Of a stretch of 19,808 nucleotides of DNA, positions 1-15,885 are shown piece after piece. The stretch spans positions 1 through 19,808 of the forward strand of contig JAKQEZ010000457.1 of the NCBI GenBank assembly GCA_029558435.1. Direction: 5' to 3'. The stretch is from Bacteroidota bacterium. Its GTDB lineage: Bacteria > Bacteroidota > Bacteroidia > Flavobacteriales > Crocinitomicaceae. Below the pieces are notes generated by a model that saw only the letters and a list, made by a program, of their open reading frames with translations, was not told the DNA's origin and made no database searches. The number at the start of each line of letters is the position of its first letter. The stretch's first letter is position 1. The position numbers were made by a program, and so were the translations under genes.

Positions 1-2818
<2,818 letters not shown>

Positions 2819-2842
2819 TGCTAAACCGCATTCCCATATTGA

Positions 2843-4195
2843 ATGAGAAAGACCATATTCATAAGCCACGCAACGCCTGACGACAATGATTTTACAAAAT
2901 GGTTGGCGTTAAAACTTATTGGATTAGGCTATGAAGTTTGGTGTGATGTTCTTTTTTTGGATAAGGGCGTAGATTTTTGGAGCAATATCGAAAAAGAAAT
3001 CAGAGAAAATGCTTGTAAGTTTTTAATTGTTTCCTCTACATATTCAAATCAGCGAGAAGGGGTTTTAAAAGAATTGGCAGTTGCTGCAAAAGTCAAAAAG
3101 CAGTTGAATGACGATACTTTTATTATTCCGTTAGCTATTGATGAGAAGCTTTCTTATGACGACATAAACATTGACATAGTTCGGCTTAATGCAATTGATT
3201 TTAAAAAATCTTGGGCAAGTGGATTACGAGATTTGTTAGAAGCATTAGAGAAACAAAACATTCCCAAAAACAGCCCTGACCTTGCAAAAAGCAATCATCT
3301 GTATCAACAAATTTTCCTGCACGATAAAAGCGTTATTGAAAAAGAAGAAATTTATGACTCAAATTGGTTTTCAATCACATCGTTTCCGACTGAGTTAAGA
3401 TTTCACGAATACGGAAAGAGAATTCCGAAAGGTTTTGACACCAGAACCTTGACTTTTCCAGCTATTCCTTACAAGAATTATTTATGCACATTTGCTTGGG
3501 AATACGATTTCATACAGCAATTGCCCGATACAGAAACATATAATAGCAGCAAGACTATCAGAATACCAGTAAATGATATTTTTTCAGGAAAATACAACAC
3601 AGATTTTATCGGAAACTTTGAATGTCAAAGGCTAATTGTTCAATTACTCAATAAAGCATTTGAGTTAAGAATGAAAGATAAGTTGGTTCGGAACTATCAA
3701 ATGTCAAACAGAATCGGATATTGGATTGAAAAAGGAATATTGGAGAAAGATAAGTTCAATAAAGTTCAGTTAGTTGGCAAACAGAAAGACAAAAATTGGC
3801 ATTTTGGAATTTCGGGAGCAGCAAAACTTTATCCGTTTCCTGTTCTAATGATTTCATCTCACATTTTTTTTACAGAAGACGGAACAAAGGTTATTGAAAC
3901 TAAAAGCATTCAACATTCCGCAAGAAGAAGACAAGGAAAAAATTGGTGGAATGACGATTGGAGAAGTAAATTATTAGCTTTTATCAAACACTTATCGGAT
4001 GATGATGCTTCATTTTATTTGGAAGTAGGTAGCGAAGAAAAGGTTTACGTTTCAAATACGCCAATTCAATTCAAAGGAATTGTTAGCTATAATATTCCAT
4101 CAAATAACAATTTAGAAGAAGAAGCTGAATTATCCGATTTGAATGACATAGATGATATTGAAGAAGAATTTGCTGAGAATATAGAATCAGAATGA
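2843..4195 (+). CDS. TIR-APAZ protein, NADase subunit of a SPARTA system
   Basis: This 450-aa protein starts with a TIR domain (about residues 1-150): IFISHATPDD forms strand A and the first loop, and Glu77 in VLKELAV sits where TIR NADases carry the catalytic glutamate. Residues from about 165 to 420 match the APAZ region, the N/PAZ-like partner module of short Argonautes. The last 30 residues are strongly acidic. In characterised SPARTA complexes the TIR-APAZ protein pairs with a short pAgo; guide RNA pairing with target DNA drives oligomerisation, and the TIR domains degrade NAD(P)+, killing or arresting the infected cell. The C-terminal tail of such proteins has been reported to occupy the nucleic-acid channel in the resting state. 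The next gene overlaps by 4 nt (ATGA), so the subunits are translationally coupled. The length is the one I recall for the Crenotalea thermophila subunit. Confidence 0.95.
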   Translation: MRKTIFISHATPDDNDFTKWLALKLIGLGYEVWCDVLFLDKGVDFWSNIEKEIRENACKFLIVSSTYSNQREGVLKELAVAAKVKKQLNDDTFIIPLAIDEKLSYDDINIDIVRLNAIDFKKSWASGLRDLLEALEKQNIPKNSPDLAKSNHLYQQIFLHDKSVIEKEEIYDSNWFSITSFPTELRFHEYGKRIPKGFDTRTLTFPAIPYKNYLCTFAWEYDFIQQLPDTETYNSSKTIRIPVNDIFSGKYNTDFIGNFECQRLIVQLLNKAFELRMKDKLVRNYQMSNRIGYWIEKGILEKDKFNKVQLVGKQKDKNWHFGISGAAKLYPFPVLMISSHIFFTEDGTKVIETKSIQHSARRRQGKNWWNDDWRSKLLAFIKHLSDDDASFYLEVGSEEKVYVSNTPIQFKGIVSYNIPSNNNLEEEAELSDLNDIDDIEEEFAENIESE

Positions 4196-5715
4196 AAGAC
4201 TTGATTTACATAGAAGAACCAAACATACTTTTTGCACACGGTCAAAAATGCACCGATGCAAGAGACGGGCTTTCATTGTTTGGTCCGCTAAATAATCTCT
4301 ATGGAATCAAAAGCGGTGTTGTTGCAACAAAAGACGGATTAAACATTTTTAAAAACTATTTAAAACACATTCAAAAACCGATTTACAACAATAACAACAT
4401 TACCAGACCTATGTTTCCGGGATTTGAAGCTGTTTTTGGCTGTAAATGGGAAGCGGAAAATATAGTTTTTAAAGAGGTAACCAATGAAGAAATTGGAAAA
4501 TTGCTTTATAACGACAGCACGCACAAAAGGACTTATGACTTGGTTTCATTGTATATCAATAAAATAATTGCAGCTAATAAAAATGAGGATGATAAAGTTG
4601 ATGTTTGGTTCGTAATTGTTCCAGATGATATTTACAAATACTGCCGTCCAAATTCAACTTTACCAAAAGCAATGGTTCAAACCAAAGCTCTTATTTCAAA
4701 GAAACAAGCAAAGAATTTCAGATATGAAGCCACTTTGTTTGAAGATATTAATATAGAGTTAAAAGCAAAGGAAAAAGAAGCTGTGTCTTATAATTATGAT
4801 GCTCAATTCCACGACCAATTAAAAGCAAGATTGCTTGAACATACTATCCCAACTCAAATTTTAAGAGAAAGCACATTGGCGTGGCGGGATTTCAAAAACA
4901 AGTTTGATAAACCCATAAGAGATTTTACAAAGATAGAAGGACATTTAGCTTGGACTATTTCGACAGCAGCATTTTACAAAGCAGGCGGAAAACCTTGGAA
5001 GTTGTCTGACATACGAAACGGAGTTTGCTATCTTGGATTAGTTTACAAAAAGGTTGAAAAAAGTAAGAACCCCAAAAATGCTTGTTGTGCAGCTCAAATG
5101 TTTTTAGATAATGGAGACGGAACTGTTTTTAAAGGTGAAGTTGGGCCTTGGTATAATCCTGAAAATGGAGAATATCATTTAAAACCAAAGGAAGCAAAAG
5201 CATTATTGACACAGGCTTTGAAATCATACCACGACCAAAATGGTAGTTATCCAAAGGAAATTTTCATTCACGCCAAAACAAAGTTTAATGCTCAAGAATG
5301 GAAAGCCTTTCAAGAAGTAACGCCAAGTGAGACAAATCTTGTTGGAGTTACGATTACCAAGACAAAACCTTTGAAACTTTACAAATCAGAAGGCGATTAT
5401 TCAATACTTAGAGGCAACGCATTTGTAGTAAATGACAAAAGTGCTTTTTTATGGACAGTTGGACACGTTCCAAAAATTCAAACTGCTTTATCTATGGAAG
5501 TTCCTAATCCAATTTTCATAGAAATAAACAAAGGAGAGGCTGACATTACGCAAGTTTTGAAAGACATCTTAGCATTGACAAAACTAAATTACAACGCTTG
5601 TATTTATGCAGACGGAGAACCTGTAACACTAAGGTTTGCTGACAAAATCGGTGAAATATTAACGGCAAGCACAGACATAAAAGCACCACCACTTGCATTC
5701 AAATATTACATATAA
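4192..5715 (+). CDS. Short prokaryotic Argonaute (MID-PIWI, catalytically inactive), SPARTA subunit
   Basis: A 507-aa protein with only MID (roughly residues 1-250) and PIWI (roughly 250-507) domains and no N or PAZ domain, the hallmark of short pAgos. Recognisable blocks are the N-terminal IYIEEPNILFAHGQKCTDAR, the MID strand VWFVIVPDD, the PIWI start GHLAWTISTAAFYKAGGKPW, and the C-terminal DKIGEIL with the ending FKYYI. The DEDX slicer tetrad is absent: the first Asp position reads CYLGLVYKK and the RDG-like position reads IFIHAKTKF. It should therefore bind guide and target without cutting and signal to the TIR domain of its partner. It is the last gene of the operon, and a hairpin (5726-5794) starts 11 nt after the stop. 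From memory the sequence is very close to Crenotalea thermophila SPARTA Ago; an alignment would settle how close. Confidence 0.95.
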   Translation: MKDLIYIEEPNILFAHGQKCTDARDGLSLFGPLNNLYGIKSGVVATKDGLNIFKNYLKHIQKPIYNNNNITRPMFPGFEAVFGCKWEAENIVFKEVTNEEIGKLLYNDSTHKRTYDLVSLYINKIIAANKNEDDKVDVWFVIVPDDIYKYCRPNSTLPKAMVQTKALISKKQAKNFRYEATLFEDINIELKAKEKEAVSYNYDAQFHDQLKARLLEHTIPTQILRESTLAWRDFKNKFDKPIRDFTKIEGHLAWTISTAAFYKAGGKPWKLSDIRNGVCYLGLVYKKVEKSKNPKNACCAAQMFLDNGDGTVFKGEVGPWYNPENGEYHLKPKEAKALLTQALKSYHDQNGSYPKEIFIHAKTKFNAQEWKAFQEVTPSETNLVGVTITKTKPLKLYKSEGDYSILRGNAFVVNDKSAFLWTVGHVPKIQTALSMEVPNPIFIEINKGEADITQVLKDILALTKLNYNACIYADGEPVTLRFADKIGEILTASTDIKAPPLAFKYYI

Positions 5716-5725
5716 CCCACAACGC

Positions 5726-5794
5726 AAAAGCATACACATTTTGCAGCCCCGCAAATCAGCCCACAAGCCAAAGCTGCAAAAAGAGTATGCTTTT
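5726..5794 (+). repeat. Family H hairpin, copy 1
   Basis: The 5' arm (5726-5747) and 3' arm (5773-5794) are complementary over 22 positions, except for two A.A mismatches around one C-G pair (5' ACA facing 3' AGA) and little else. The 25-nt loop contains CCCACAAGCCA. It lies 11 nt after the Argonaute stop, with CAACGCA just before the 5' arm, so it could act as the operon's transcription end, although only four T follow. Three other copies occur in this window with different stem sequences. Confidence 0.8.
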
Positions 5795-5803
5795 CTCCAG
5801 CCC

Positions 5804-5860
5804 GAGAAAAATTGTTTTAAAAAAATTCCTTCCCTTCTGAAAAATTTTAAAAACTCCAAC
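5804..5860 (+). repeat. AT-rich hairpin with pyrimidine loop beside H copy 1
   Basis: Just downstream of hairpin H1, TTTTAAAAAAATTC and GAAAAATTTTAAAA are largely self-complementary (11 of 14) around the pyrimidine-only loop CTTCCCTTCT. Comparable A/T arms next to C-rich, G-free linkers flank H copies 2, 3 and 4. It may be a satellite part of the H element or a terminator-like structure. The match is imperfect and the assignment is tentative. Confidence 0.4.
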
Positions 5861-5942
5861 TCACAATCCGACACAAATACATTCGGACTGTTTGCAAAAC
5901 TTAATAAAGACAAGGGTTGCAAGACACGGACGACAGGAACGC

Positions 5943-6087
5943 CAGCCTGTAACAGCGTGTATGTGGCAATAGCGGGTGAAGTGGTAAATCGAAGGTCAGT
6001 GCTTCTAAAAAACTTTGTGCTAAACGGACAGGAAAGTGCTTCTAATCCGCTACTGCACATACACGCCAACCGTTGGCTGCAATGCTA
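5943..6087 (+). repeat. Family A 145-bp attC-like inverted repeat, copy 1
   Basis: The left end CAGCCTGTAAC and right end ACCGTTGGCTGCAATGCTA bracket a long imperfect hairpin. GCGTGTATGTG (5955-5965) pairs perfectly with CACATACACGC (6056-6066) and continues through TAGCGG/CCGCTA; CAGCC pairs with GGCTG at the ends. The roughly 70-nt terminal loop carries AAGGTCAGTGCTTC and CTTTGTGCT. The layout (outer boxes AAC...GTT, spacer, inner stem, large loop) resembles an integron attC site, but the right box GTTGGCT departs from GTTRRRY. The element ends 35 nt before the Pif1-like gene. Confidence 0.8.
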
Positions 6088-6122
6088 AAGGACAGACCCT
6101 AATTGAAAATAATAAATAAAAA

Positions 6123-8426
6123 ATGACACTTGACACCAACAATATAGAATTTCAAACAGCTCTTGAGTTAATACAAGAGACAAATCAGTCATTTTTCTTG
6201 ACAGGGAAAGCAGGGACAGGGAAGTCAACTTTTCTAAAACATATCGTTGAGACAGTTTCGAAGGATTTTGTCGTTGTTGCACCAACTGGTATTGCCGCAG
6301 TGAACGTTGGTGGAGTTACAATCCATTCCTTTTTTCAATTTCCTCTAAGACCTTTACTCCCTGAAGATGAAGACATAAAAATATTTTGGAAAGATTCAGA
6401 GAAGCGGAAAATAATCTCTGCAATGGACACATTAATCATTGATGAAATTTCAATGGTTCGTGCTGATTTAATAGATGGAATTGACTATTCACTTAGAAAA
6501 AACGGTGGAAACCCAAATCTTCCATTTGGGGGGAAACAGGTGGTTTTTGTTGGCGACATATTCCAATTAGAACCTGTCACTATTAAAAACACTGGTGAGC
6601 AAAAAATTATTAGTGAAATTTATGGAAGTTCCTATTTCTACAATGCGAAAGTATTTGAAAGAGTTAGCTTATTTACCGTTGAACTTCAAAAAGTTTACCG
6701 ACAAACAGATTCGGCATTTATTTCATTATTGGACAAAGTAAGAGTCAAAGAAATTTCCCCAACAGATTTAAATAAAATAAATACTAGAGTATTCTCTCAA
6801 TCAGAATTAAACAAAAATGATTTTGCAATTACTCTTACAACAAAGAACGATTTAGCTGACACAGTTAATTTCAAAAAACTATCAGAATTAAAAACAGAAC
6901 CATTTGCTTACAATGCAGAAGTTTCAGGTGAATTCGAAGAAAGTAAATATCCTACAGAACCTGAACTAACTTTAAAAGTTGGAGCTCAGGTAATATTTAT
7001 AAAGAACGATACAGATAAAAGATGGGTAAATGGAACTATTGGTCAGGTTAGCGGATTAACAGATACCGAAATTAAAGTTAAGCTGAAAGACGGAGAAATC
7101 TACTCTGTAGAAAAGAGAATATGGGAAAATATTAAATACCAATACAATAAAGAAAAAAAGAAAATTGAACAAGAAATTGTAGGAACGTTTAAACAATATC
7201 CTTTGAAACTTGCTTGGGCAATTACAATTCATAAGAGTCAGGGATTAACTTTTGACAAAGTAGTCGTAGACTTTGGGAACGGGACTTTTGCAAGTGGACA
7301 AGCATACGTTGCACTAAGCAGAGCAACTAGTTTTGAAGGACTATTTCTTAAGCAAAAATTGAATTCAACTGATATTTACATTGATGACGAGATTAAAGAG
7401 TTTGCTAAAACCTTCAATGACCAGACAAAAATAAATGAGAGTTTAGTTGTTGGGAAAAAAGTGTTTAAGTATCAAAAAAATAAAGACAATGAACGTATTG
7501 GAGACTTACATTTCCAAAATGCAATCACTAATATTGAAAATGGAAATTTCAAATCTGCATACAGCGAACTAATAGCTGGATTTGAGAATGTATCTTGTGA
7601 CTGTGCCTTAACAACACTTATTGAAAGTAGATATGAGCAAATAACACTTTCATTAAAATCAAACTCAATTAACTGCTCATTATCAGAACTTGATTTTATA
7701 AGGGCAGTTATTTACTACTTTCCTGATTCAGGCAATTTTGGTCAAGAGCAGAAAGGTATTTACAAGAGAGCTTTACCTTTAATTGATTCATATTTAGATG
7801 ACTATCCTAATTCAGAAATCGGTCATTATTTAAAAGGAAGGGTTTTATCAGGACTTGAAAATTTTGACGAAGCTATTTCAGAATTTGAATTCGCATTGTC
7901 AATAAAGGAAACGCCAAGAGTCCACTATCGTATAGGAAGGATAAAAGAGCAAAAATTACAACATTTTGGTATAGACAATCTTTACAAGTCAATTTTGCAA
8001 AACCCTTCTAGTTTATGTTCATTAAGATGGTTTAAAGACTGTTGTGATTCCAGGGGCATAAAACTTCAAACAAACACACATAAACTTCTTGCTAATTTTT
8101 TTAATAATAAAAATACAGATGAATTCAGAAAAACGGTCAACCAATTATTATTAAATGGAACTGTCATTTTAACTGAAAACAGAACATTAAATGTTTCAAC
8201 TGCATTCGAAGATTTTCTTAGTAGTTTAAAGGCAGACGAAAATTTATTTGGTGTCGTAGAATTGGGAGAAGATGAAGAAGGCTACGAGCCTGATTATGAT
8301 GACTTTGATGATTATGACGATTACAGCCCAAGTTATGACAAATATGGTGGTGCTTATGGTTATGATGATGACACGATTGATAGTGCATTTGAAGGAGACC
8401 CTGAAAACTATTGGAATATTGACTAA
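6123..8426 (+). CDS. Pif1-like SF1 DNA helicase with TPR-like C-terminus and acidic tail
   Basis: In this 767-aa protein, Walker A is GKAGTGKST (28-36), Walker B DEIS (107-110) and motif III GDIFQLEPV (144-152). The C-terminal motor motifs are ITIHKSQG (367-374) and YVALSRA (395-401), all characteristic of Pif1/RecD-type 5'-3' DNA helicases. From about residue 450 the protein leaves the Pif1 fold. Residues 540-612 look like tetratricopeptide repeats (SYLDDYPNSEIGHYLKGRVL, then NFDEAISEFEFAL), suggesting a partner-binding platform. The last 45 residues are an Asp/Tyr/Gly-rich acidic tail. It is much longer than a minimal bacterial Pif1 domain (about 430 aa). It stands alone between two family A repeats; no clear TAnnTTTG promoter lies in the 35 nt before the ATG, so transcription may start inside or upstream of repeat A1. 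The role (replication-fork or anti-mobile-element function) is inference. Confidence 0.92.
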   Translation: MTLDTNNIEFQTALELIQETNQSFFLTGKAGTGKSTFLKHIVETVSKDFVVVAPTGIAAVNVGGVTIHSFFQFPLRPLLPEDEDIKIFWKDSEKRKIISAMDTLIIDEISMVRADLIDGIDYSLRKNGGNPNLPFGGKQVVFVGDIFQLEPVTIKNTGEQKIISEIYGSSYFYNAKVFERVSLFTVELQKVYRQTDSAFISLLDKVRVKEISPTDLNKINTRVFSQSELNKNDFAITLTTKNDLADTVNFKKLSELKTEPFAYNAEVSGEFEESKYPTEPELTLKVGAQVIFIKNDTDKRWVNGTIGQVSGLTDTEIKVKLKDGEIYSVEKRIWENIKYQYNKEKKKIEQEIVGTFKQYPLKLAWAITIHKSQGLTFDKVVVDFGNGTFASGQAYVALSRATSFEGLFLKQKLNSTDIYIDDEIKEFAKTFNDQTKINESLVVGKKVFKYQKNKDNERIGDLHFQNAITNIENGNFKSAYSELIAGFENVSCDCALTTLIESRYEQITLSLKSNSINCSLSELDFIRAVIYYFPDSGNFGQEQKGIYKRALPLIDSYLDDYPNSEIGHYLKGRVLSGLENFDEAISEFEFALSIKETPRVHYRIGRIKEQKLQHFGIDNLYKSILQNPSSLCSLRWFKDCCDSRGIKLQTNTHKLLANFFNNKNTDEFRKTVNQLLLNGTVILTENRTLNVSTAFEDFLSSLKADENLFGVVELGEDEEGYEPDYDDFDDYDDYSPSYDKYGGAYGYDDDTIDSAFEGDPENYWNID

Positions 8427-8434
8427 AGAAAGCA

Positions 8435-8582
8435 CAGCAGCCAACATGCGTTTGGCGTCATGCGGGCTGACGTGCTTACATTCAAGTTCAGTTTTCCAAT
8501 TGGGCTTTTGTGCTGGGTTGACAGTTTTGTGCTCCGAAAACCCGCACGAACGCAAAGCGCAAAAACGTTACCTGCAACCCTA
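8435..8582 (+). repeat. Family A attC-like inverted repeat, copy 2
   Basis: It begins 8 nt after the Pif1-like gene stop. The left end CAGCAGCCAAC and right end AACGTTACCTGCAACCCTA match copies 1 and 3. TGCGTTTGGCGT...TGCGGG pairs imperfectly with CCCGCACGAACGCAAAGCGCA. The loop carries AAGTTCAGTTTTCC and TTTTGTGCT. The AAC-to-GTT distance is 121 nt, against 118 in the other two copies. With copy 1 it brackets one gene as a cassette. Confidence 0.75.
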
Positions 8583-8684
8583 AAAGTTCTCTGCTAACTC
8601 CAAAGTTCAGTGCTTCTTTTTGACAGACAAAAGACAAATACCGACTTTAGGACAATCTCTTTTCACCGACAGACCCACCCTTCG

Positions 8685-8726
8685 TATTTTTATTTTTTCC
8701 CCACGCACAAAAAAATTGAAGTTTTT
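8685..8726 (+). repeat. AT-rich modules inverted relative to 15282-15326
   Basis: TATTTTTATTTTTT (8685-8698) and AAAAAAATTGAAGTTTTT (8709-8726) are exact reverse complements of 15313-15326 and 15282-15299. The C-rich linkers CCCACCCTTC and CCCCACGCAC are instead present in direct orientation at both places. The block directly precedes hairpin H2. Confidence 0.65.
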
Positions 8727-8739
8727 AATGCCAACGCAC

Positions 8740-8808
8740 ATTGCACACATTTGTCTTTGCCTGCTAACGCACAAAGCCAACCCAAAGGCAAAGCCAAAAG
8801 AGTGCAAT
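8740..8808 (+). repeat. Family H hairpin, copy 2
   Basis: The 5' arm 8740-8762 (ATTGCAC, then ACA, then the inner stem ending TTTGCCT) pairs with the 3' arm 8786-8808 (AGGCAAA to GAGTGCAAT), with the same A.A/C-G/A.A interruption as the other copies. The 23-nt loop contains GCACAAAGCCA. CCAACGCAC precedes it, matching the flank of copies 1 and 3. Confidence 0.75.
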
Positions 8809-8843
8809 CGCCACGCACTATAAAGACAAAACAGCCAAAAACA

Positions 8844-8870
8844 AACAGCCCCGAAAACGGGGCTGTTCTT
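8844..8870. terminator. Perfect 10-bp GC-rich stem with AAAA tetraloop
   Basis: AACAGCCCCG and CGGGGCTGTT form a perfect 10-bp stem around AAAA. On the + strand it is followed by CTTTG; on the - strand it is followed by TGTTTTTGG, so it may work in both directions. It separates the Pif1/repeat region from the two-component operon that starts 73 nt later. Confidence 0.65.
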
Positions 8871-8942
8871 TGTAATGCAAATACCGGCATCATATTTCAC
8901 CAATTCAAAAAGTATTCAAAATTCAATCGGTAAATTCGCACG

Positions 8943-9620
8943 ATGAAAGTTTTGGTTATAGAAGATGAACAGCAACTTGCGAATAGCATACAAACTTACC
9001 TGACGGGTAACGACTTTGTTTGTGAGTTGGCTGTCAATGCTAAAACGGCTATTGACAAAATCTCCTCTTACGAATACGACTGCATTTTACTTGACTTAAT
9101 GTTGCCTGACGGCAACGGCTTTCAAATTCTGAAAGAACTTAAAAGACAAAATAAAACCGAAGGAGTGATAATCATTTCCGCAAAAGAAACTTTAGAAACT
9201 CGCATAGAAGGTTTTAATCTTGGAGCGGACGACTATCTGACAAAGCCCTTTCATCTATCCGAATTGCTTGTAAGAATACAGGCACTCATCAGGCGTAAAA
9301 ATTTCAAAGGCAGCAACATTATTGCTTTCAACGAGATTGAAATCAATATCCTTTCAAAAACAGTAAGCATAAACAACGCACTGAAAGATTTTACCAAAAA
9401 GGAAATTGATTTACTGCTTTACTTAGTTGGCAACAAAAATAAAGTGCTTTCAAAAAGTGCCATTGCAGAACATCTTTCGGGTGATATGGCGGACATGCTG
9501 GATAATTATGATTTTGTTTACGCACACATCAAAAATTTGAAAAAGAAATTGAATGAGGCGGGTAGCGGTGATTACATAAAAACCGTTTACGGTTTAGGTT
9601 ACAAATGGCAGCATGACTAA
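8943..9620 (+). CDS. OmpR-family response regulator
   Basis: This 225-aa protein has a receiver domain with the acidic pocket Glu7-Asp8, phospho-acceptor Asp51 in LLDLMLPDGNGF, Ser79 at the switch position and Lys101 in LTKPF. An OmpR/PhoB winged-helix DNA-binding domain follows, with FTKKEIDLLLYLVGN and the C-terminal VYGLGYKW. The length is standard. The sensor kinase gene starts within its last codons (8-nt overlap), so the two form a cognate, translationally coupled pair. It most likely controls the downstream PepSY-like/outer-membrane receptor genes, which have a separate upstream promoter candidate. The inducing signal cannot be read from the sequence. Nothing points to a truncated or atypical receiver. 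Confidence 0.96.
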   Translation: MKVLVIEDEQQLANSIQTYLTGNDFVCELAVNAKTAIDKISSYEYDCILLDLMLPDGNGFQILKELKRQNKTEGVIIISAKETLETRIEGFNLGADDYLTKPFHLSELLVRIQALIRRKNFKGSNIIAFNEIEINILSKTVSINNALKDFTKKEIDLLLYLVGNKNKVLSKSAIAEHLSGDMADMLDNYDFVYAHIKNLKKKLNEAGSGDYIKTVYGLGYKWQHD

Positions 9621-10878
9621 AAAACTTCTACATAAAACTTCAAGGGCTTACCTCATTTTTTCGGTGTTGGTTTTAAGCGTGTCCGCTCCATTGTTCTATT
9701 TCATTACGGAGCGTTTATACATGCAAGAAACAGACGAAACGCTGATACTCCATAAGAACGAGTTTTTTAAATATTCACTACCGACACTAACTATTTCTGA
9801 AATTCCAAACTGGAACAAATACAACCGCAACGTAAAAATTGAACCATTCAATCACATCGCTAAAGACACACTGTTTTACACTTCTTACTTCGACACCTTA
9901 GATGCCGAGAACGAACCATACAGGGAACTCAATACACCTGTTACCATTCAGCAGCAACCTTACACCTACACAGCCAGAATTAACTTAGTTGAAACAGAAG
10001 ATTTGATGAAAAGCATTGCTCTTTTGTTCATTGCTGTCATTCTCATTCTGCTTGTGGGGCTTTTTATTATTACTCGTAAGTTATCCGTTACATTATGGAA
10101 ACCATTTTACAAAACATTGCAGCAGATAGAAGAATTTGAAATTGACAAGAGCAAGCAACCGCAATTAGCAGAAACAGACATTGAAGAATTTAACCGCTTA
10201 AATCAGAGTATTGAAAAACTAATTGAGAGAAACATAACCATTTACAAAAGCCAGCGTGAGTTTATTGAAAACGCAGCCCACGAACTGCAAACACCTTTAG
10301 CAGTTTTTCAGGTAAAGATAGATACCATCATACAGCGTTCAGATGTTACAAAAGAGCAGTCAGAAATTTTAAGTTCCTTAAACGAGAATGTTTCACGGTT
10401 AAATCGTTTGAACAAAAATTTACTCTTGCTTTCTAAAATTGATAACGAAAGTTACAGCGATAAGCAAACGGTTTCATTGAATGAATTGATTGAAAAACAC
10501 ATCGGCTTTTTTACGGAACAGGCAAAAGCAAAAAACATAACCATAGAAACAAAGCTGTCAGAGCCGCTTGAAACAAAATCAAATCCTGTTTTAGCTGAAG
10601 TGCTAATCAATAATCTCTTTCTCAATGCTATCAGGCATAATGTTCCTAACGGCAGAATTGTAATTACACTTTCTAATCACTCACTTACATTTTCAAATAC
10701 GGGTCAGGCAACTGCCTTGGTTCAGGAAAAATTGTTTAACCGCTTTTCAAAAGTCAATCCGTCTGAACAAGGAACAGGTTTGGGCTTATCCATTGTAAAG
10801 AAAATTGCCGACATAAATAACTGGACAGTATCTTACTGTCACTCCGAAAATCTCCATTCGTTTTCCATTTTATTCTAA
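9613..10878 (+). CDS. Membrane sensor histidine kinase
   Basis: The kinase has 421 residues, with two membrane segments at about 12-33 and 134-155 enclosing a roughly 100-residue periplasmic sensor region rich in charged and aromatic residues. Then come a HAMP-like linker, a HisKA domain with His223 in NAAHELQTPLA, the N box NNLFLNAIRHN (about 333-343) and the G box GTGLGLSIVKKI (387-398). The H box has Gln where most kinases have Arg (HELRTPL). No clear G1 box (DxGxG) is seen; at its place is the shortened SNTGQA at about 361-366, a compact form seen in some Bacteroidota kinases. It should phosphorylate the adjacent response regulator in response to an envelope signal. The sensor domain is not recognised as any named family. 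Confidence 0.95.
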   Translation: MTKKLLHKTSRAYLIFSVLVLSVSAPLFYFITERLYMQETDETLILHKNEFFKYSLPTLTISEIPNWNKYNRNVKIEPFNHIAKDTLFYTSYFDTLDAENEPYRELNTPVTIQQQPYTYTARINLVETEDLMKSIALLFIAVILILLVGLFIITRKLSVTLWKPFYKTLQQIEEFEIDKSKQPQLAETDIEEFNRLNQSIEKLIERNITIYKSQREFIENAAHELQTPLAVFQVKIDTIIQRSDVTKEQSEILSSLNENVSRLNRLNKNLLLLSKIDNESYSDKQTVSLNELIEKHIGFFTEQAKAKNITIETKLSEPLETKSNPVLAEVLINNLFLNAIRHNVPNGRIVITLSNHSLTFSNTGQATALVQEKLFNRFSKVNPSEQGTGLGLSIVKKIADINNWTVSYCHSENLHSFSILF

Positions 10879-10888
10879 GCGTTCAGAA

Positions 10889-10915
10889 TTTCTTCTAAAT
10901 CGAGTTTCACCTTTG
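10889..10915 (+). promoter_or_regulatory. Promoter candidate for the PepSY-like/receptor operon
   Basis: CACCTTTG at 10908-10915 matches the Bacteroidota -7 consensus TAnnTTTG at all fixed positions but one. TTTC at 10889-10892 is a weak -33 box with a short spacer. It would give a transcript starting about 25-30 nt before the ATG at 10951. The inference rests on consensus matching only. Confidence 0.3.
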
Positions 10916-10950
10916 CCTTGTAATTTTTAATTCAACAAAAAAACAAGGCA

Positions 10951-11379
10951 ATGAAAAACTCAATAATCCTTTTAGCAGTAATGCTCACAGCAGCATTTGC
11001 CAACGCACAAAAAATTCAGGACAAAGACGTTCCTGCAACTGTAAAAACAGCTTTGCAAAACAAGTATCCCCAAGCTAAAGAGCTAAAGTGGGAAAAAGAA
11101 AACGGCAACTACGAAGCAGAGTTTGAAGTCAGCGAAACCGACTATTCCGTTTTGTTAGATGCTTCGGGAAACATTCTTGAAACAGAAATTGAAATCAAAC
11201 TTGATGAACTTCCTGCCAATGCCAAAGAGTATGTTTCAAAAAATCATTCAGGTCAAAAAATTAAAGAAGCCGCAAAAATTACTGATGCCAAAGGCACAAT
11301 AACTTATGAAGCAGAAATCAAAGGCACAGATTTGATTTTTGACAGCAACGGCAATTTCATTAAAAAAGTAAAAGAGTAA
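10951..11379 (+). CDS. Periplasmic PepSY-like (beta-lactamase-inhibitor-like) protein
   Basis: The product is a 142-aa secreted protein with a clear signal peptide, probably cut at ANA-Q (after residue 19). The mature part holds two PepSY-like half-repeats of alternating strands and helices, each with an acidic, lysine-rich face: first VPATVKTALQNKYPQAKELK with WEKENGNYEAEF, then LPANAKEYVSKNH with TYEAEIKGTDLIFDSNG. This is the pattern of the putative BLIP-like PepSY domain common in Bacteroidota. Such proteins are usually periplasmic, of uncertain biochemical role, and often sit beside two-component systems. The TonB-receptor-like gene starts 4 nt after the stop, so they are co-expressed. 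A role in sensing or handling a ligand for that receptor is inference. Confidence 0.88.
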   Translation: MKNSIILLAVMLTAAFANAQKIQDKDVPATVKTALQNKYPQAKELKWEKENGNYEAEFEVSETDYSVLLDASGNILETEIEIKLDELPANAKEYVSKNHSGQKIKEAAKITDAKGTITYEAEIKGTDLIFDSNGNFIKKVKE

Positions 11380-11383
11380 ATCA

Positions 11384-13795
11384 ATGCACAGAAAAACACT
11401 GGTAGTTCTCGCATTATTTCTTTTTGCTTTTACAGTTTCGTTTGCACAAACCAAATTGGTTAGCGTTTCAGGAACAATAAAAGACAAAACAGCAAAAACT
11501 GTTTTGCCTTTTGTAAACGTGGTTTTGAAAACTGAGAAAGACACTGTATTTGTAACAGGCACAGTAAGCAACGAAGAAGGGCGGTTTACGCTGTCCAATG
11601 TAAAACCCGACAACTATCTTTTAGAAATCTCCTATGTGGGCTACACCACAAAACGCCAATCGCTTTTTGTAGGAACGCTTTCCGAGTTTTTAGAAGTGCC
11701 GACTGTAGAGTTGGAAGAAAGCACTCAAACTTTAGGCGAAGTAACTGTTACCGCCAAACAAGATGAAGTAAGCGGAAAGATGGACAAGAAAACCTTTTCC
11801 GTAGAGGACAACATCAGCCAAAGCGGTGGTTCGGTTTTGCAAACCATGCAAAACCTGCCCGGTGTTACGGTGCAAGACGGCAAAGTGCAGTTGCGGGGCA
11901 GCGACAAAGTAACCGTGCTGATTGACGGTAAGCAAACCGCTCTTACAGGCATGGGAAGCCAAACGGGGTTAGACAATATCCCTGCATCCGCCATTGAAAA
12001 AATTGAAATCATAAATAACCCTTCTGCTAAGTATGATGCCAACGGAAATGCAGGTATCATCAACATCATTTACAAGAAAAACAAACAAGACGGCTTTAAC
12101 GGCAAGGCGGGAATTGCAACAGGGTTAGGTTCTTTGTGGGTGCGAAAACAAAATCTTCCAACCATTCGTCCGCAATATCAGTTTACGCCAAAAGTAAATC
12201 CCACGCTGTCGTTCAACTATCGCAAAAACAAAGTGAACGCATTTTTTCAAGGCGATTATCTCTATACGCAAACGCTGAATAAAAATGAATTTGTAACACG
12301 AACTTATGATGACGGCACAATCATCAAGCAACAAACCAAGCGAAACCGCAACACGCATTTTGCAAATGCAAAAGCAGGAATTGATTGGTATATGAACGAC
12401 CACAACATGCTTACCGTTTCGGGCTTGTATGGTTTAGAAAAAATTATTGACAATGGCGACCAGCCTTTTTTCAATTCAGATTTATCAGAGCGGCTTCGAT
12501 TGTGGCAGTTTTTAGAAGATGAACTGAAAACTACTGTTATGGCATCTGCTGCCTATCAGCACAAGTTTAAACAGTTGGGGCATGTGCTGAACGCAGGTGT
12601 CAATTACACCTTTCACCGCGAGGACGAGAAATATTTTTTCGACAACATACTGCCCACTTATTCAGGCAAAGATGCTTTCGCATTGATTTCAGACGAGCAT
12701 GTAGTGGATATAAATACCGATTATGTCCGTCCGCTCAAATACGGACGGATTGAAGGAGGCTTAAAATTTCGTTGGCGGGAAATTCCTACCAACATGAAAT
12801 TTATTCCAGGACTTAATTCGCCTTTAGATACCACCGCAGGCGGTGCAGCTACTTACAAAGAAATTATTCCTGCACTTTATGCCAACTATGTTTATGAAAG
12901 CAAAAAGTTTGAAGCCGAAGTTGGTTTGCGGGTAGAGTATGTAAACATAAATTATGTGGTAGGTTCAATTCATCCCACTTACAAAACCGATGGATATAAC
13001 TATACACAGCCGTTTCCGAATGTTCGCTTGGCTTACAAAGTAAACGACAACAATAAAATTTCCATTTTCTACAACCGCAGGGTTGACAGACCAAACGAAG
13101 TGGACATTCGCATTTTTCCAAAGTATGACGATGCGGAAATTATCAAAGTTGGAAACCCTGCACTTCGTCCGCAGTTCACACACTTGATTGAGTTGGGCTA
13201 CAAAACCAATTGGAAGAGCGGATATTTTTATTCAGCCGCTTATCACCGCTTGGCAGACGGAACAATCACAAGAATACGGACGATAGTTCCAAACACTACA
13301 CTCATCTATTCCGTGATGCAAAATGCGGGCAGAAGCTACGCCACAGGTTTAGATATAACCTTGTCGCAAGACATTACAAAACTGTTTTCCTTCAACCTTA
13401 ATCTGAACGGTTATCATAACCGACTAAATGCTTTTACAGTTCTAAATAAATATCCGCAGGAAACAACATACAGTTCACCCACTCGACAAATCTTTTCAGG
13501 CAACGCAAAGTTGAACACCTTTTTTCATTTGCCGTTGAAATTTGAATTACAGTTGACAGGCATTTATTACGCACCCGACCTTGTTCCGCAAGGCAAAATC
13601 GGACATCGTTTTGCCTTGAACCTTGGTGTAAAAAAACTAATTCAAAAGGGCAAAGGTGAGTTGTTCCTCAATGCTACCGACCTTGCCAATACAATGGTGG
13701 TGAGAGAAGATATAAGAGGCAACGGCTTTAATTATGTGGGTTACGATTATTACGAAACACAGGTAATCCGCATCGGATATAACTACAAGTTTTAA
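11384..13795 (+). CDS. Outer-membrane TonB-dependent receptor-like beta-barrel protein
   Basis: The gene encodes 803 residues. A signal peptide ends near VSFAQ (residue 22). A carboxypeptidase-regulatory-like beta-sandwich follows (about 25-110; SGTIKDK, then PDNYLLEISYVGY), then a TonB plug domain (about 120-235; VLQTMQNLPGVTVQDG, VLIDGKQ, IEKIEIINNPSAKYDANG). The rest is a long C-terminal barrel of the OMP beta-barrel family, ending in an aromatic residue (YNYKF), as expected for insertion by the Bam machinery. The length is normal for the family lacking a SusD partner, and no susD gene is adjacent. It probably imports or binds a ligand at the outer membrane under the control of the upstream two-component pair. 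The substrate cannot be told; peptides, metals or siderophores are all possible. Confidence 0.94.
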   Translation: MHRKTLVVLALFLFAFTVSFAQTKLVSVSGTIKDKTAKTVLPFVNVVLKTEKDTVFVTGTVSNEEGRFTLSNVKPDNYLLEISYVGYTTKRQSLFVGTLSEFLEVPTVELEESTQTLGEVTVTAKQDEVSGKMDKKTFSVEDNISQSGGSVLQTMQNLPGVTVQDGKVQLRGSDKVTVLIDGKQTALTGMGSQTGLDNIPASAIEKIEIINNPSAKYDANGNAGIINIIYKKNKQDGFNGKAGIATGLGSLWVRKQNLPTIRPQYQFTPKVNPTLSFNYRKNKVNAFFQGDYLYTQTLNKNEFVTRTYDDGTIIKQQTKRNRNTHFANAKAGIDWYMNDHNMLTVSGLYGLEKIIDNGDQPFFNSDLSERLRLWQFLEDELKTTVMASAAYQHKFKQLGHVLNAGVNYTFHREDEKYFFDNILPTYSGKDAFALISDEHVVDINTDYVRPLKYGRIEGGLKFRWREIPTNMKFIPGLNSPLDTTAGGAATYKEIIPALYANYVYESKKFEAEVGLRVEYVNINYVVGSIHPTYKTDGYNYTQPFPNVRLAYKVNDNNKISIFYNRRVDRPNEVDIRIFPKYDDAEIIKVGNPALRPQFTHLIELGYKTNWKSGYFYSAAYHRLADGTITRIRTIVPNTTLIYSVMQNAGRSYATGLDITLSQDITKLFSFNLNLNGYHNRLNAFTVLNKYPQETTYSSPTRQIFSGNAKLNTFFHLPLKFELQLTGIYYAPDLVPQGKIGHRFALNLGVKKLIQKGKGELFLNATDLANTMVVREDIRGNGFNYVGYDYYETQVIRIGYNYKF

Positions 13796-13830
13796 GACAT
13801 GCGGAAGAATTTTAACTCAGCACTTCTTCA

Positions 13831-13866
13831 AAAAGCCCTCGATTGTATCGGGGGCTTTTGTTTTTG
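13831..13866 (+). terminator. Rho-independent terminator after the receptor gene
   Basis: AAAAGCCCTCGAT pairs with ATCGGGGGCTTTT (13 bp with one T.G wobble) around the triloop TGT, followed by a T-rich tail. It closes the two-component/receptor region 35 nt after the stop. Confidence 0.9.
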
Positions 13867-13940
13867 TAGTGACACTGTATTTACAACACTCTCATTTCAA
13901 ATACAGTCCTTTGCGTAGTTCTTTCACATATAGCTCAAAG

Positions 13941-14141
13941 GTGATTATCGGCAAACGCATCAAAATGTTGCGGAAGAAAAAGAACATGACCCTGCAACAA
14001 CTTGCCGACCTAATCAAAGCAGACAGACAATATGTATGGAATATTGAAAACGGAACTGTAAATCTTACACTGGATTACATGGATAGAATAGCAGAAGCAC
14101 TACAAGTTTCACAATCAGAATTCATCAACACAACTATTTAA
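13941..14141 (+). CDS. Small XRE-type helix-turn-helix protein
   Basis: A 66-aa protein that is almost entirely one Cro/C1-type HTH domain: IGKRIKMLRKKKNMTLQQLA (helices 1-2), ADRQYVWNIENG (recognition helix) and LDYMDRIAEALQVSQSEF (helices 4-5). I chose the GTG at 13941 because the domain begins there. A longer reading from GTG 13869 would start inside the T-tail of the preceding terminator and add 24 residues unlike the family. It likely regulates its own transcription or that of the following gene, which starts 20 nt downstream. Small orphan XRE proteins paired with an unknown gene are common in mobile or recently acquired Bacteroidota segments, but no toxin fold is evident next door. Confidence 0.85.
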   Translation: MIIGKRIKMLRKKKNMTLQQLADLIKADRQYVWNIENGTVNLTLDYMDRIAEALQVSQSEFINTTI

Positions 14142-14161
14142 TCACACCAAAATCAAATAAC

Positions 14162-14910
14162 ATGGCAAGCACATCAGAAACCGGACACGCAAAAAATGTA
14201 GCCAACTTCGAGGACATGATTTCCTTCTGCAACGGCTACGGTGGCTCCTACAATCCTTCTAAAATTGCAATTCAAATTCCATCGCTTAACACGCTTCGCA
14301 CAAATGCGGAAAATGCAGTAGCAGATGTAAACGCAGCCAACACAGCTTTCATCAATGCAACAAATGCTCGGCAAATTGCTTTCAATCCTGTTAAGCCATT
14401 AGCCACACGGTTAGTAAATGCTTTAGAAGCTACCGATGCAACAGACGAATTGATTAAGGATGCGAAAACTTTAAACAGAAAAGTTCAGGGTGCTCGTAAA
14501 AGCAAAGGCCAAAACCCGAAACGCCACCAACTCCACCCGATACACTTGCAGAAGATAAACAGATTTCCGTTTCACAACAAAGCTATGACAGCATTATTGA
14601 GAATGTTGGAAAGTTAGGTGAGTTGATAATATCAGAACCCACCTATGCACCAAACGAAGTGGACTTGCAAGTAGTATCACTTACAAACTTTCACAACAAC
14701 TTGAAAACGACAAACACCGCAGTCATTAACGCAACAACAGCTATCAGCAATGCACGTATTGCCCGCAACAACATTCTTTATGCCGACAAGACAGGACTTT
14801 ACGACATTGCACAGGAAGTGAAAAAATATGTGAAGTCAGTTTTCGGAGCGACAAGCCCTCAGTATAAACAAGTGAGCAAAATCAAGTTTACTAAGCCACG
14901 CAAAAAGTAA
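14162..14910 (+). pseudogene. Unknown alpha-helical two-repeat protein, frameshifted
   Basis: Two adjacent frames read as one gene. The first frame (14162-14617) gives an Ala/Asn/Thr-rich helical segment up to KSKGQ. From about 14511 the sensible reading continues in another frame (KPETPPTPPDTLAEDKQ, then through YDSIIENVGKLGELIISEP) into 14623-14910. Restoring one A to the run AAAA at 14511-14514 joins them into about 249 residues. The two halves resemble each other (SLNTLRTNAENAVADVNAAN against SLTNFHNNLKTTNTAVINAT), separated by a Pro-rich linker, so the protein is an internal duplication. No signal peptide or membrane segment is seen. I recognise the type only as a hypothetical protein found in Bacteroidota. 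It could be a real inactivation, a sequencing error or a phase-variable homopolymer. Confidence 0.75.
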
Positions 14911-14932
14911 TCTCACATGACAATCGGTAAAG

Positions 14933-14969
14933 CCGCCTTGACAATTCATAAAGTTGCAAGGCGGTTTTT
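14933..14969 (+). terminator. Rho-independent terminator after the frameshifted gene
   Basis: CCGCCTTG (14933-14940) pairs with CAAGGCGG (14957-14964), followed by TTTTT. It begins 22 nt after the stop codon at 14910. Confidence 0.85.
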
Positions 14970-14980
14970 ATTTTCTTTTA

Positions 14981-15175
14981 ACCTGCTCGACAATGTTGCC
15001 GTTCCTCTTTTCACTTTTCGCAATCCGCTCGACAATGTTGTCATGACAATCGGTAGCTCTACAATGACGTTCCATACTTTTCGCATGACACTTTATGCTT
15101 CTTTCAATCCGCTCAACACTTTTCGCACGACAATTTTCAGTTCTTGCATCACGCTCGACAATGTTGCCATGACAA
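14981..15175 (+). repeat. Degenerate tandem repeats, GCTCGACAATGTTG units
   Basis: GCTCGACAATGTTG occurs at 14985, 15027 and 15153, and shorter variants (CGCATGACACTTT, CGCTCAACACTTTTCGC, CGCACGACAATTTTC) lie between them. The spacing is irregular, about 25-45 nt. Both strands have an open frame over it by chance of the repeat, but neither looks like a protein. It is probably a non-coding minisatellite-like stretch of unknown role. Confidence 0.6.
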
Positions 15176-15200
15176 AGACCGAAAGACAGGCAACGCACTA

Positions 15201-15268
15201 AAAAAATACACTCTTGCAAGTCGCACAAGCCACCCCGCAGACCAAAACTTGCAAGAGAGTATTTTTTT
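15201..15268 (+). repeat. Family H hairpin, copy 3
   Basis: The 5' arm 15201-15220 pairs with the 3' arm 15248-15267, with a single A.A mismatch at the position conserved in all copies. The 27-nt loop begins TCGCACAAGCCACC, matching the loops of copies 1 and 2. GGCAACGCAC precedes it. The arm ends in T7, so it could also terminate transcription. Confidence 0.78.
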
Positions 15269-15281
15269 CTGCCGCCCAAAC

Positions 15282-15326
15282 AAAAACTTCAATTTTTTTC
15301 TCCCACCCTTCTAAAAAATAAAAATA
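15282..15326 (+). repeat. AT-rich modules inverted relative to 8685-8726
   Basis: AAAAACTTCAATTTTTTT (15282-15299) and AAAAAATAAAAATA (15313-15326) are exact reverse complements of the two AT-rich blocks before hairpin H2. The linker CCCACCCTTC between them and CCCCACGCAC (15327-15336) after them keep the same orientation as at the other site. Confidence 0.65.
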
Positions 15327-15430
15327 CCCCACGCACCCCCTAACCGACAGTTCAGTCCTTCCATTCCAAAGCCCTTCCTTGACAGTTTAGTGCTAACCCG
15401 ACACGACAACACCTTCGACAGACAGCAGGG

Positions 15431-15575
15431 CAGCCGGTAACATGGGGTTTGCGATAGCGGGGATTCCGTGCTTCGCAGACACATTTGTGCAGGGTGGAAG
15501 TTCAGTTCTCCGAATGAAGTTTAGTGCTAAAACTCCCCGCCATCGCAAACCCCCGAAACGTTAGCGGCAATGGTA
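15431..15575 (+). repeat. Family A 145-bp attC-like inverted repeat, copy 3
   Basis: The left end is CAGCCGGTAAC and the right end AACGTTAGCGGCAATGGTA. GCCGGTAAC pairs with GTTAGCGGC (8 of 9). The inner stem GGGTTTGCGATAGCGGGG pairs with CCCCGCCATCGCAAACCC at all but one position. The loop has TTTGTGC and AAGTTCAGTTCTCC. It lies midway between hairpins H3 and H4, upstream of the type IIG gene. Confidence 0.8.
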
Positions 15576-15725
15576 TTTCAGCGTTTCCCTTACCTGACAA
15601 GTTCCACTTCTTTGACAAAAAAAAACGACCTCGGACAACAACTGACAAACACGACAAACCCCACCCTCGCCCACCCGCAGAAAAAAAATTAAAAATCCCC
15701 CGCACAAAAATTTTATGGCTACGCT

Positions 15726-15789
15726 ATTGCACACATCCCGCTTTTTGCCACCCGCGAGCCCACCCACAAAAAAGCGGGAAGAGTGCAAT
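15726..15789 (+). repeat. Family H hairpin, copy 4
   Basis: ATTGCAC-ACA-TCCCGCTTTTT (15726-15746) pairs with 15769-15789, which ends GAGTGCAAT, with the usual A.A/C-G/A.A interruption. The 22-nt loop is C-rich (GCCCACCCACA). GGCTACGCT precedes it. It is 97 nt before the type IIG start codon. Confidence 0.78.
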
Positions 15790-15838
15790 TCCCACCCGCA
15801 AAAAACAGCCGGTGTGTCTTTTTAAGAAGCATAAATTT

Positions 15839-15846
15839 TACCTTTG
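15839..15846 (+). promoter_or_regulatory. Promoter -7 box candidate for the type IIG gene
   Basis: TACCTTTG is a full match to the Bacteroidota sigma -7 consensus TAnnTTTG, placed 39 nt before the ATG at 15886. The -33 region is only T-rich (TTTTT near 15819), so the match is partial. Confidence 0.5.
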
Positions 15847-15885
15847 CTATAATCACATTTAATAAATGATTATTGAATTAACTGA

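Follow-up and report, generated by a model that had tools for sequence, protein, structure and literature searches.

Three similar elements, designated A1, A2, and A3, are spaced along the forward strand of a contig from a Bacteroidota bacterium of the Crocinitomicaceae (GenBank assembly GCA_029558435.1, contig JAKQEZ010000457.1), and the question raised by this locus is what they are and whether they mobilize the genes between them. The stretch analyzed, positions 1 to 19,808 of the contig, is referred to here as the window. An earlier note, made from the letters alone, had described the elements as laid out like the attC sites of integrons and had suggested a folded substrate of recombination or an RNA. 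The results presented below give high confidence that A1 to A3 belong, as attC-like recombination sites, to an integron-like system found in Bacteroidota; the class of integrons behind these sites apparently has not been recognized hitherto.

All three copies lie where they had been reported: A1 at 5942-6082 (left box 5942-5953 with AAC at 5951-5953, stem-loop 5954-6071, putative crossover GTT at 6072-6074), A2 at 8434-8577 (AAC 8443-8445, GTT 8567-8569), and A3 at 15430-15570 (AAC 15439-15441, GTT 15560-15562). After its left box, which ends in AAC, each has an A, then two stem segments and a loop that varies, and finally the right end CGTTRSCKGCAA. The common ends (CAGC..YAACA on the left and CGTTRSCKGCAA on the right) were found in every copy, and the spacing between AAC and GTT, 118, 121, and 118 nucleotides (nt), was reproduced. 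A covariance model, R1, built from 65 elements (the three window copies and 62 chosen for difference), scored A1, A2, and A3 with filters off at 104.1, 117.9, and 118.8 bits, respectively; the next-best stretch of the window reached 9.3 bits and the opposite-strand reading of A3 29.4 bits.

The inner stems are self-complementary, with an 11-bp run in A1 and a 20-nt arm pair in A3 that is 95% complementary, and the arms covary as proposed: in the 65-element alignment, 16 of 17 inner-stem pairs are changed on both sides, with 253 double-change cells compared with 10 one-side cells. RNAalifold, applied to 159 aligned sites, gave only a short stem, so the structure was read from column pairing. 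In the structure drawn in this way 94.3% of the cells pair, compared with 71.1% after shuffling and 31 to 46% after sliding, a comparison that favors the structure because it was drawn from the same alignment. As in attC sites, then, the arms are self-complementary and structure rather than sequence is kept. The loop motif pointed out earlier is carried by A1, A2, and A3 and is variable across the wider family. A structured RNA transcribed behind genes, be it a terminator, a riboswitch, or the RNA of a defense system, would likewise have a covarying stem and would likewise be placed behind genes. However, apart from one fixed T-G pair (48 of 61 cells), G-T occurs in only 10 cells, in keeping with arms maintained as DNA, and an RNA would account neither for outer complementarity to sequence one gene upstream nor for exchange at GTT (both described below). 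Nor is there a match to a known RNA family, and such a match is what the earlier note had named as telling against its proposal: none was found in the Rfam scan of the window at the gathering score, and a search of locus L149 at E values up to 1 returned one unrelated sub-threshold match only. An RNA is accordingly an extremely improbable explanation.

The sites form a large family centered on one phylum. Across 84,980 species genomes, a pattern of 19 fixed bases from the right arm and end had at least 119 matches, where about 5 would be expected (an estimate that assumes equal base composition). Bacteroidota are named in 110 of the 119 titles among the matches listed; the others are Ignavibacteria (3), metagenome-assembled genomes (MAGs) of Thermochlorobacteriaceae, Treponema, Firmicutes/Bacillota (two), and Staskawiczbacteria, and one other bacterium. 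The Treponema stretch (L042) gave no R1 match at 1e-6. A first version of the pattern, run on viral contigs, gave 15 matches, an estimated chance level, and served only to refine the pattern. With R1 and 10 candidates scored per genome, sites were found in at least 139 of 296 sampled Bacteroidota genomes. In two controls with 21 candidates scored per genome, sites were found in 11 of 149 genomes from the phylum of the Treponema centre and in 1 of 149 from the phylum of G312, the one being G312 itself, a possibly mixed MAG that bears the name Bacillota. A genome of the former phylum, G322, carries 8 sites across 72 kb (C1 1153465-1225425), one of them on the opposite strand, possibly acquired from Bacteroidota. 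Where loci had been chosen for their sites, the 14 genomes from which they come all have numerous copies (at least 7 to 49 R1 matches per genome), and 72 chosen loci totaling 660 kb yielded 442 matches at E ≤ 0.1, opposite-strand echoes counted and 300 of the matches listed.

Individual sites recur in different surroundings. Searched with blastn, A1 returned 2 records and A3 returned 9, and the core of A3 is 94 to 97% identical to sites in five loci whose surroundings differ (L035, L041, L084, L114, and L139). The query 8427-8942 returned 12 Bacteroidota plasmids, every match being inside A2, in the first 160 nt of the query. On the plasmids examined, the sites sit among resistance genes that include tet(X), catB, erm(F), ere(D), OXA-347, lnu(H), and estT-floR; the erm(F) site is also present on a Salmonella IncC plasmid and an Acinetobacter plasmid, and complete Escherichia coli genomes gave no match to it. 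The placement at boundaries of defense modules, which the earlier note had emphasized, is a feature of the window rather than of the family, the sites not being specific to such modules.

The relation of each site to its gene was analyzed in 28 selected arrays (27 loci in which R1 matched several times, plus the window), which gave 186 elements and 157 segments between neighbors. Thirteen elements with AAC or GTT off the expected offset were dropped, weak matches outside those listed were left out, and one element is counted twice because L165 and L091 overlap. Because two cassettes are fused into one wherever a site is dropped or unlisted, these omissions work against the test. Over the 14 nt past GTT, the left end of a site agrees with the start of its own cassette at 9.74 of 14 positions (157 cassettes), compared with 5.50 in the shuffled control (standard deviation 0.118; maximum of 5.91 in 1000 shuffles) and with 5.66 for the left end and the right end of the same site. 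In 111 cassettes, the own left end is the best or tied best of all 157. Position 8 past GTT pairs in 1% only, since the cassette start has A there (185 of 186) and the left-box complement mostly G, which makes a fixed A/C mismatch. Such agreement is what is predicted for cassettes with a crossover in GTT and is characteristic of attC sites. It also calls for a correction: judging from these sequences, the right end of a copy is part of the next cassette, which explains why pairing is poor between the two boxes of a copy and good between the left box and the start of its own cassette. The segments have a median length of 703 bp, of which the longest open reading frame (ORF) fills 89%; this ORF runs toward the site in 141 of the 157 and away from it in 8, and the other 8 have no ORF of 60 amino acids (aa), so that the arrays are made mostly of co-oriented single-gene cassettes. 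Placement relative to genes is not random: the start codon lies a median of 40 nt past the TT, and the end of AAC a median of 18 nt past the stop codon.

Naturally occurring swaps point to the same crossover. Right past GTT, the erm(F) unit continues as ATGTGAAAG in L002, AGCGGGCAT in L008, ATGTGCCAT in L009, and GGCATTCAT in L010, and three copies of the tet(X) unit, those of L001, L002, and L009, are 100% identical in left flank and core and each has a different follower. Among 307 elements found by script, 16 record pairs share ≥90% identity over 60 nt on the left and ≥95% in the core; in 15 of the 16, the right flank is unrelated from just past GTT. Five gene-site units lie behind these pairs, namely those of erm(F) type, tet(X), and catB plus two more; the 15 swaps are therefore not 15 independent events.

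Could the sites instead have been dispersed behind genes as IS91-type ends or as small non-autonomous transposable elements? Near-identical cores do occur in different flanks (among 599 pairs of sites with ≥90% identical cores, right flanks differ in 573 and left flanks in 569), and an IS91 element with a tyrosine recombinase abuts several sites at AAC. Scattered elements, however, do not predict one-strand arrays, one gene per site, the match to the cassette start, or breakpoints at GTT, and the site in L009 is uninterrupted and lacks the IS91 element present in L006, showing that the sites are not confined to places where the element is found. Judged from the loci compared here, this origin is therefore highly improbable. 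The IS91-family element itself, in which an integrase-like tyrosine recombinase gene overlaps, is present with both genes at L003 7691-10001 and at L006 1062-3373 and 11935-14246, and single ends were found in L059, L064, L062, L066, L119, and L183. It sits in the left box of sites: its right end, GGTTTAGTTC, is followed by AACA in 7 of 7 cases, and its left end comes after ...AA in 6 of 6. It looks like an attC-targeting transposon.

If A1 to A3 are sites of an integron-like system, a recombinase is expected to accompany the arrays, and in other genomes the support that the earlier note had predicted (many copies, each behind a different gene, with a tyrosine recombinase encoded) was found. 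Integron-integrase-like genes, all scoring under the cut-off of the integron integrase model TIGR02249, adjoin arrays. Of 25 recombinases labeled array-type in a tree, 19 (among them those of L027, L088, L123, and L126) are accompanied by a site within the same stretch, 8 being divergent from the array and 11 co-oriented and upstream of it. In five divergent platforms, a conserved attI-like sequence stands beside the integrase, directly ahead of the first GTT (TTTCGTATATTTGAGT in G004 and G006, GACGCAATGCGTAAATTTGRAA in G005 and G007, and CGCATTGCGTATATTTGGGT in G003), and the left box of the first site complements the start of the first cassette for 9 or 10 nt to the first mismatch, as counted by eye. 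A regular expression derived from these five detected 15 distinct attI-like sites in all loci, including two on plasmid stretches without a neighboring integrase (L003 and L007). On the latter, an Emticicia plasmid, the region 5467-9960 has the attI-like site and, after it, several sites among an RloB-family gene and further genes; kwaAB defense genes are nearby, and no integrase is among the annotated features of this stretch.

The integrase and the sites also co-occur. Among the matches listed for the 296 genomes, an integrase (E ≤ 1e-45) is present in 91; both are present in 78 genomes, the site only in 61, the integrase only in 13, and neither in 144 (odds ratio of 14, p = 8e-20, a value that ignores kinship). 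A site lies within 1.5 kb at 14 of 30 integrase loci, that of the query included. The recombinase is likely the one that acts on the sites, an assignment made by adjacency.

The array-type recombinases resemble IntI but lack its insert. Eight that were scanned are 278 to 394 aa long. In the alignment, the catalytic R, K, HxLRH, H, and Y are intact by eye, and the IntI insert, present in IntI1 and two other IntI proteins, is missing. A C-terminal SPLD or SPFD motif is common to array-type enzymes and IntI (SPLD in IntI1) and is absent from two XerC/XerD rows. On TIGR02249, the eight score 181 to 215 bits in two pieces, below the cut-off of 265, with a gap at about positions 180-238, compared with 505.7 bits in one piece for IntI1, and none of 14 site-bearing genomes has a match above the cut-off. 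On NF040815, the NCBI family of that number with the title "site-specific tyrosine recombinase/integron integrase" (cut-off of 220 bits), four pass (222 to 240) and four do not (198 to 219); some database relatives bear the same name, and the resemblance to integron integrases has thus already been noted by name, but the arrays have not, in the sources covered. The L147 protein, 28.8% identical to IntI1, has among its best solved-structure relatives by sequence and fold XerA (5hxy), an archaeal Xer, and IntI4 (2a3v), the alignment to the latter falling into two pieces. XerA acts on dif-like sites, and IntI4 carries an extra domain. An AlphaFold model of one integrase (predicted local distance difference test score, pLDDT, 84.7; predicted template modeling score, pTM, 0.59) is likewise nearest to XerA and IntI4 and is supportive only. 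In a tree of 43 rows, nine housekeeping Xer proteins split off with support of 100/99 and three canonical IntI proteins form one clade (100/100); the array-type enzymes fall into several clades, and their deep order relative to IntI and the IS91 recombinases is without support. In the same tree, an XerA-like recombinase encoded beside erm(F) on a Flagellimonas plasmid (L010 5865-6683) groups with the array integrases of L146 and L147 (95/89) and is a candidate mobile integrase.

These properties bear on whether the system is simply an ordinary integron, with canonical attC sites moved by a canonical IntI. The layout and the cassette logic are the same, the SPLD motif is shared with IntI1, relatives are named accordingly by NCBI, with half of the eight above the NF040815 cut-off, and G312 has a canonical IntI together with R1 sites. 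In canonical attC sites, however, the boxes follow the consensus RYYYAAC and GTTRRRY. The earlier note had already observed that the right boxes of the window do not obey the latter, and this extends to the family: GTTRRRY was found in 5 of 186 right ends and an RYYYAAC-type left box in 2 of 186. Conversely, a class 1 integron that carries aadA2 and dfrA12 had no R1 match scoring over 7.8 bits, and G310, a Treponema MAG with a canonical IntI, has no R1 match at 1e-6. With the two-piece matches to TIGR02249, this makes an ordinary integron very unlikely; as box consensus and integrase domain both fail, the system is not a canonical integron.

By sequence comparison, the system behind A1 to A3 appears to work like an integron while being non-canonical by the two criteria tested, with a presumed recombinase function and presumed folding of one strand; the cassette rule, the swaps at GTT, and the adjoining tyrosine recombinases of other genomes all support the earlier notion of a folded recombination substrate. 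As the sequence comparisons show, a cassette begins with TTR..., inside the upstream GTT, continues through usually one co-oriented gene, and ends with the AAC, stem-loop, and G of the site that belongs to it; the outer left arm of this site complements the start of the same cassette. By analogy with integrons, one DNA strand of the site would fold into a hairpin, the integrase would cut within GTT, and circular cassettes would be taken up by an attI-like site, such as TTGCGTATATTTGAGAGTTA, or by another site. The Xer/IntI-like tyrosine recombinase that is found beside many arrays, and that lacks the IntI insert, is the likely integrase. Integrons, including sedentary chromosomal ones, are the same in having a folded site per gene, a GTT crossover, a left box complementing the own cassette start, and one-strand arrays, as well as, in part of the platforms, an attI-like site beside a tyrosine recombinase. 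The Bacteroidota site differs by its length of ∼140 nt, its ∼118 nt between boxes, the lack of GTTRRRY, and the fixed A/C mismatch of the outer stem, and the recombinase differs by the missing insert.

Within the window, the segment between A1 and A2 (6073-8567, forward strand) fits this scheme. It starts with TTGGCTGCAATGCT, carries a single gene, and has A2 at its end, and its start matches the reverse complement of the A2 left box at 10 of 14 positions, a value reached by 1.5% of 24,492 random pairs. The gene encodes a PIF1-like helicase of 767 aa (6123-8426, forward strand; Pfam PF05970, 5.8e-33); it starts 51 nt past the G of GTT, and its last base is 17 nt from the AAC of A2. For the 6.9-kb segment between A2 and A3 (8568-15560, forward strand), the match to the A3 left box is 9 of 14 (5.0% of random pairs). 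Given these two values, the sequence case for a cassette is fairly well supported for the helicase unit and only suggestive for the longer segment, which is either one very large cassette or host DNA that separates two arrays. It contains genes for a response regulator, a histidine kinase, a PepSY-like protein, an outer-membrane receptor, and a helix-turn-helix protein, the receptor being 97% and 93% identical to proteins from Chitinophagales MAGs; judged by this protein, the host would probably be an uncultured member of the Chitinophagales. The window would be part of one such array or of two, with the helicase cassette and defense genes as cargo.

Several observations weigh against the assignment of A1 to A3 to an integron-like system. 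The segment between A2 and A3 is the longest of the 157, about 10 times the usual cassette length. Neither an integrase nor an attI-like site was found in the window, the regular expression included. Homologs of the helicase (1e-60) were found in 91 of 395 genomes, and none of 15 such loci, taken with 1.5-kb flanks, has an attC-like site, so the helicase cassette was not found elsewhere among those loci. Beyond the window, 6 of the 25 array-type recombinases are without a site in the stretch examined, the regular expression found no attI-like site in the co-oriented platforms (11 of 19), and, among the matches listed, 13 of 91 integrase genomes lack a site and 61 of 139 site genomes lack an integrase at 1e-45. 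Weak TIGR02249 matches are, moreover, present in 13 of 14 control genomes, and consequently only the adjacency of the enzyme, not its presence, speaks for its role.

The site-bearing genomes without an integrase match would also be compatible with shuffling of genes by homologous recombination between repeats or by the housekeeping XerC/XerD, the adjoining recombinase being a bystander. Shared cores, up to 97% or more identical, and natural DNA uptake by Riemerella would fit as well. Nevertheless, identity in the swap pairs stops at GTT, the edge of the 118-nt core, the housekeeping Xer proteins separate cleanly from the array-type enzymes in the tree, and it is the array-type recombinase that adjoins the arrays and co-occurs with the sites. 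Shuffling of this kind is considered unlikely, and an integron-like system remains the preferred explanation.

In the text of the IntegronFinder 2.0 paper (PMC9024848) consulted, earlier finds in Bacteroidetes are said to have been integrases without cassettes only; complete integrons are now given for the Bacteroidetes/Chlorobi group, with one in Bacteroidetes proper, in Salinibacter ruber. That single complete integron compares with sites in at least 139 of 296 genomes here. Bacteroidota are listed among integron-bearing phyla in the part consulted of another paper (PMC8618304). The additional domain is treated as defining for IntI in the relevant section of PMC9668308. An "integron-like subgroup" of tyrosine recombinases in which the IntI insertion is not fully conserved, a likeness to the enzymes described here, is reported in PMC8138268; its examined text, in contrast, calls the insertion essential for integron function and does not include Bacteroidota cassette arrays. 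A parallel is offered by a 2026 paper in which, according to the section available, aph(3')-IVb integrates without homology in Riemerella anatipestifer when accompanied by 27 bp on the 5' side and 140 bp on the 3' side (PMC13148043). Its authors likened the 140-bp region to an attC fold and left the mechanism open. The unit resembles the cassettes described here in the attC-like 140-bp 3' region and in homology-independent integration, a likeness by description rather than by sequence, and the section names no family, array, attI, or recombinase (PMC13148043). Apart from this paper, a search that covered few subscription journals and no preprints found no literature on the site family or its integrase.

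A broader proposal can be advanced only tentatively, being somewhat more apt to fail than to hold: that this is a second integron system of Bacteroidota, of greater age perhaps or of independent origin, with a recombinase able to act on folded sites although it lacks the domain regarded as essential for integron integrases; that the system is present in about half of the phylum and feeds defense and resistance cassettes to plasmids; and that it has its own parasite, an IS91 element that inserts in the sites by means of an integrase-like recombinase. If true, cassette exchange across a whole phylum has been left out by the definitions of box and integrase. The system would explain how erm(F), tet(X), and catB units came to be strung together on Bacteroidota plasmids and how the erm(F) site reached Salmonella IncC and Acinetobacter plasmids, and it would offer a mechanism for the unexplained integration in Riemerella. 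It would further serve as nature's own test of the requirements that an integrase must fulfill to recombine folded DNA, and would provide a large unread pool of cassette genes, the single-gene cassettes carrying phage defense, drug resistance, and other traits.

The genes flanking the sites in the window include several defense components. Upstream of A1, a helicase-restriction-like gene that runs off the window edge precedes a DNA methyltransferase (1865-2818; PF01555, 6.4e-53), the TIR domain protein of a short Argonaute system (2843-4195; PADLOC Aga_TIR, 2.1e-143), and the short Argonaute itself (4192-5715; PADLOC pAgo_I, 3.5e-197), the last base of which is 236 nt ahead of the AAC of A1. 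Downstream of A3 lies a type IIG restriction-modification protein (15886-18687; PADLOC, 4.1e-210), followed by a last open frame that runs off the edge; these four genes with coordinates are all on the forward strand. No R1 site was found in the window beyond A3, and no end of the type IIG unit was seen within the window. Ahead of A3, two small ORFs (14162-14910) have no PADLOC match. A second type of palindrome (ATTGCACACAT...AGAGTGCAAT), with differing arms, occurs once after A2 (8740-8808) and once after A3 (15726-15789); its motif was found 0 times in L001-L011 and gave 2 matches in L027-L145. Finally, a strong inverted repeat stands upstream of A1 (5726-5794; arms of 22 nt, 91% complementary) and another upstream of A3 (15200-15268; arms of 22 nt, 95% complementary); both are possible terminators.

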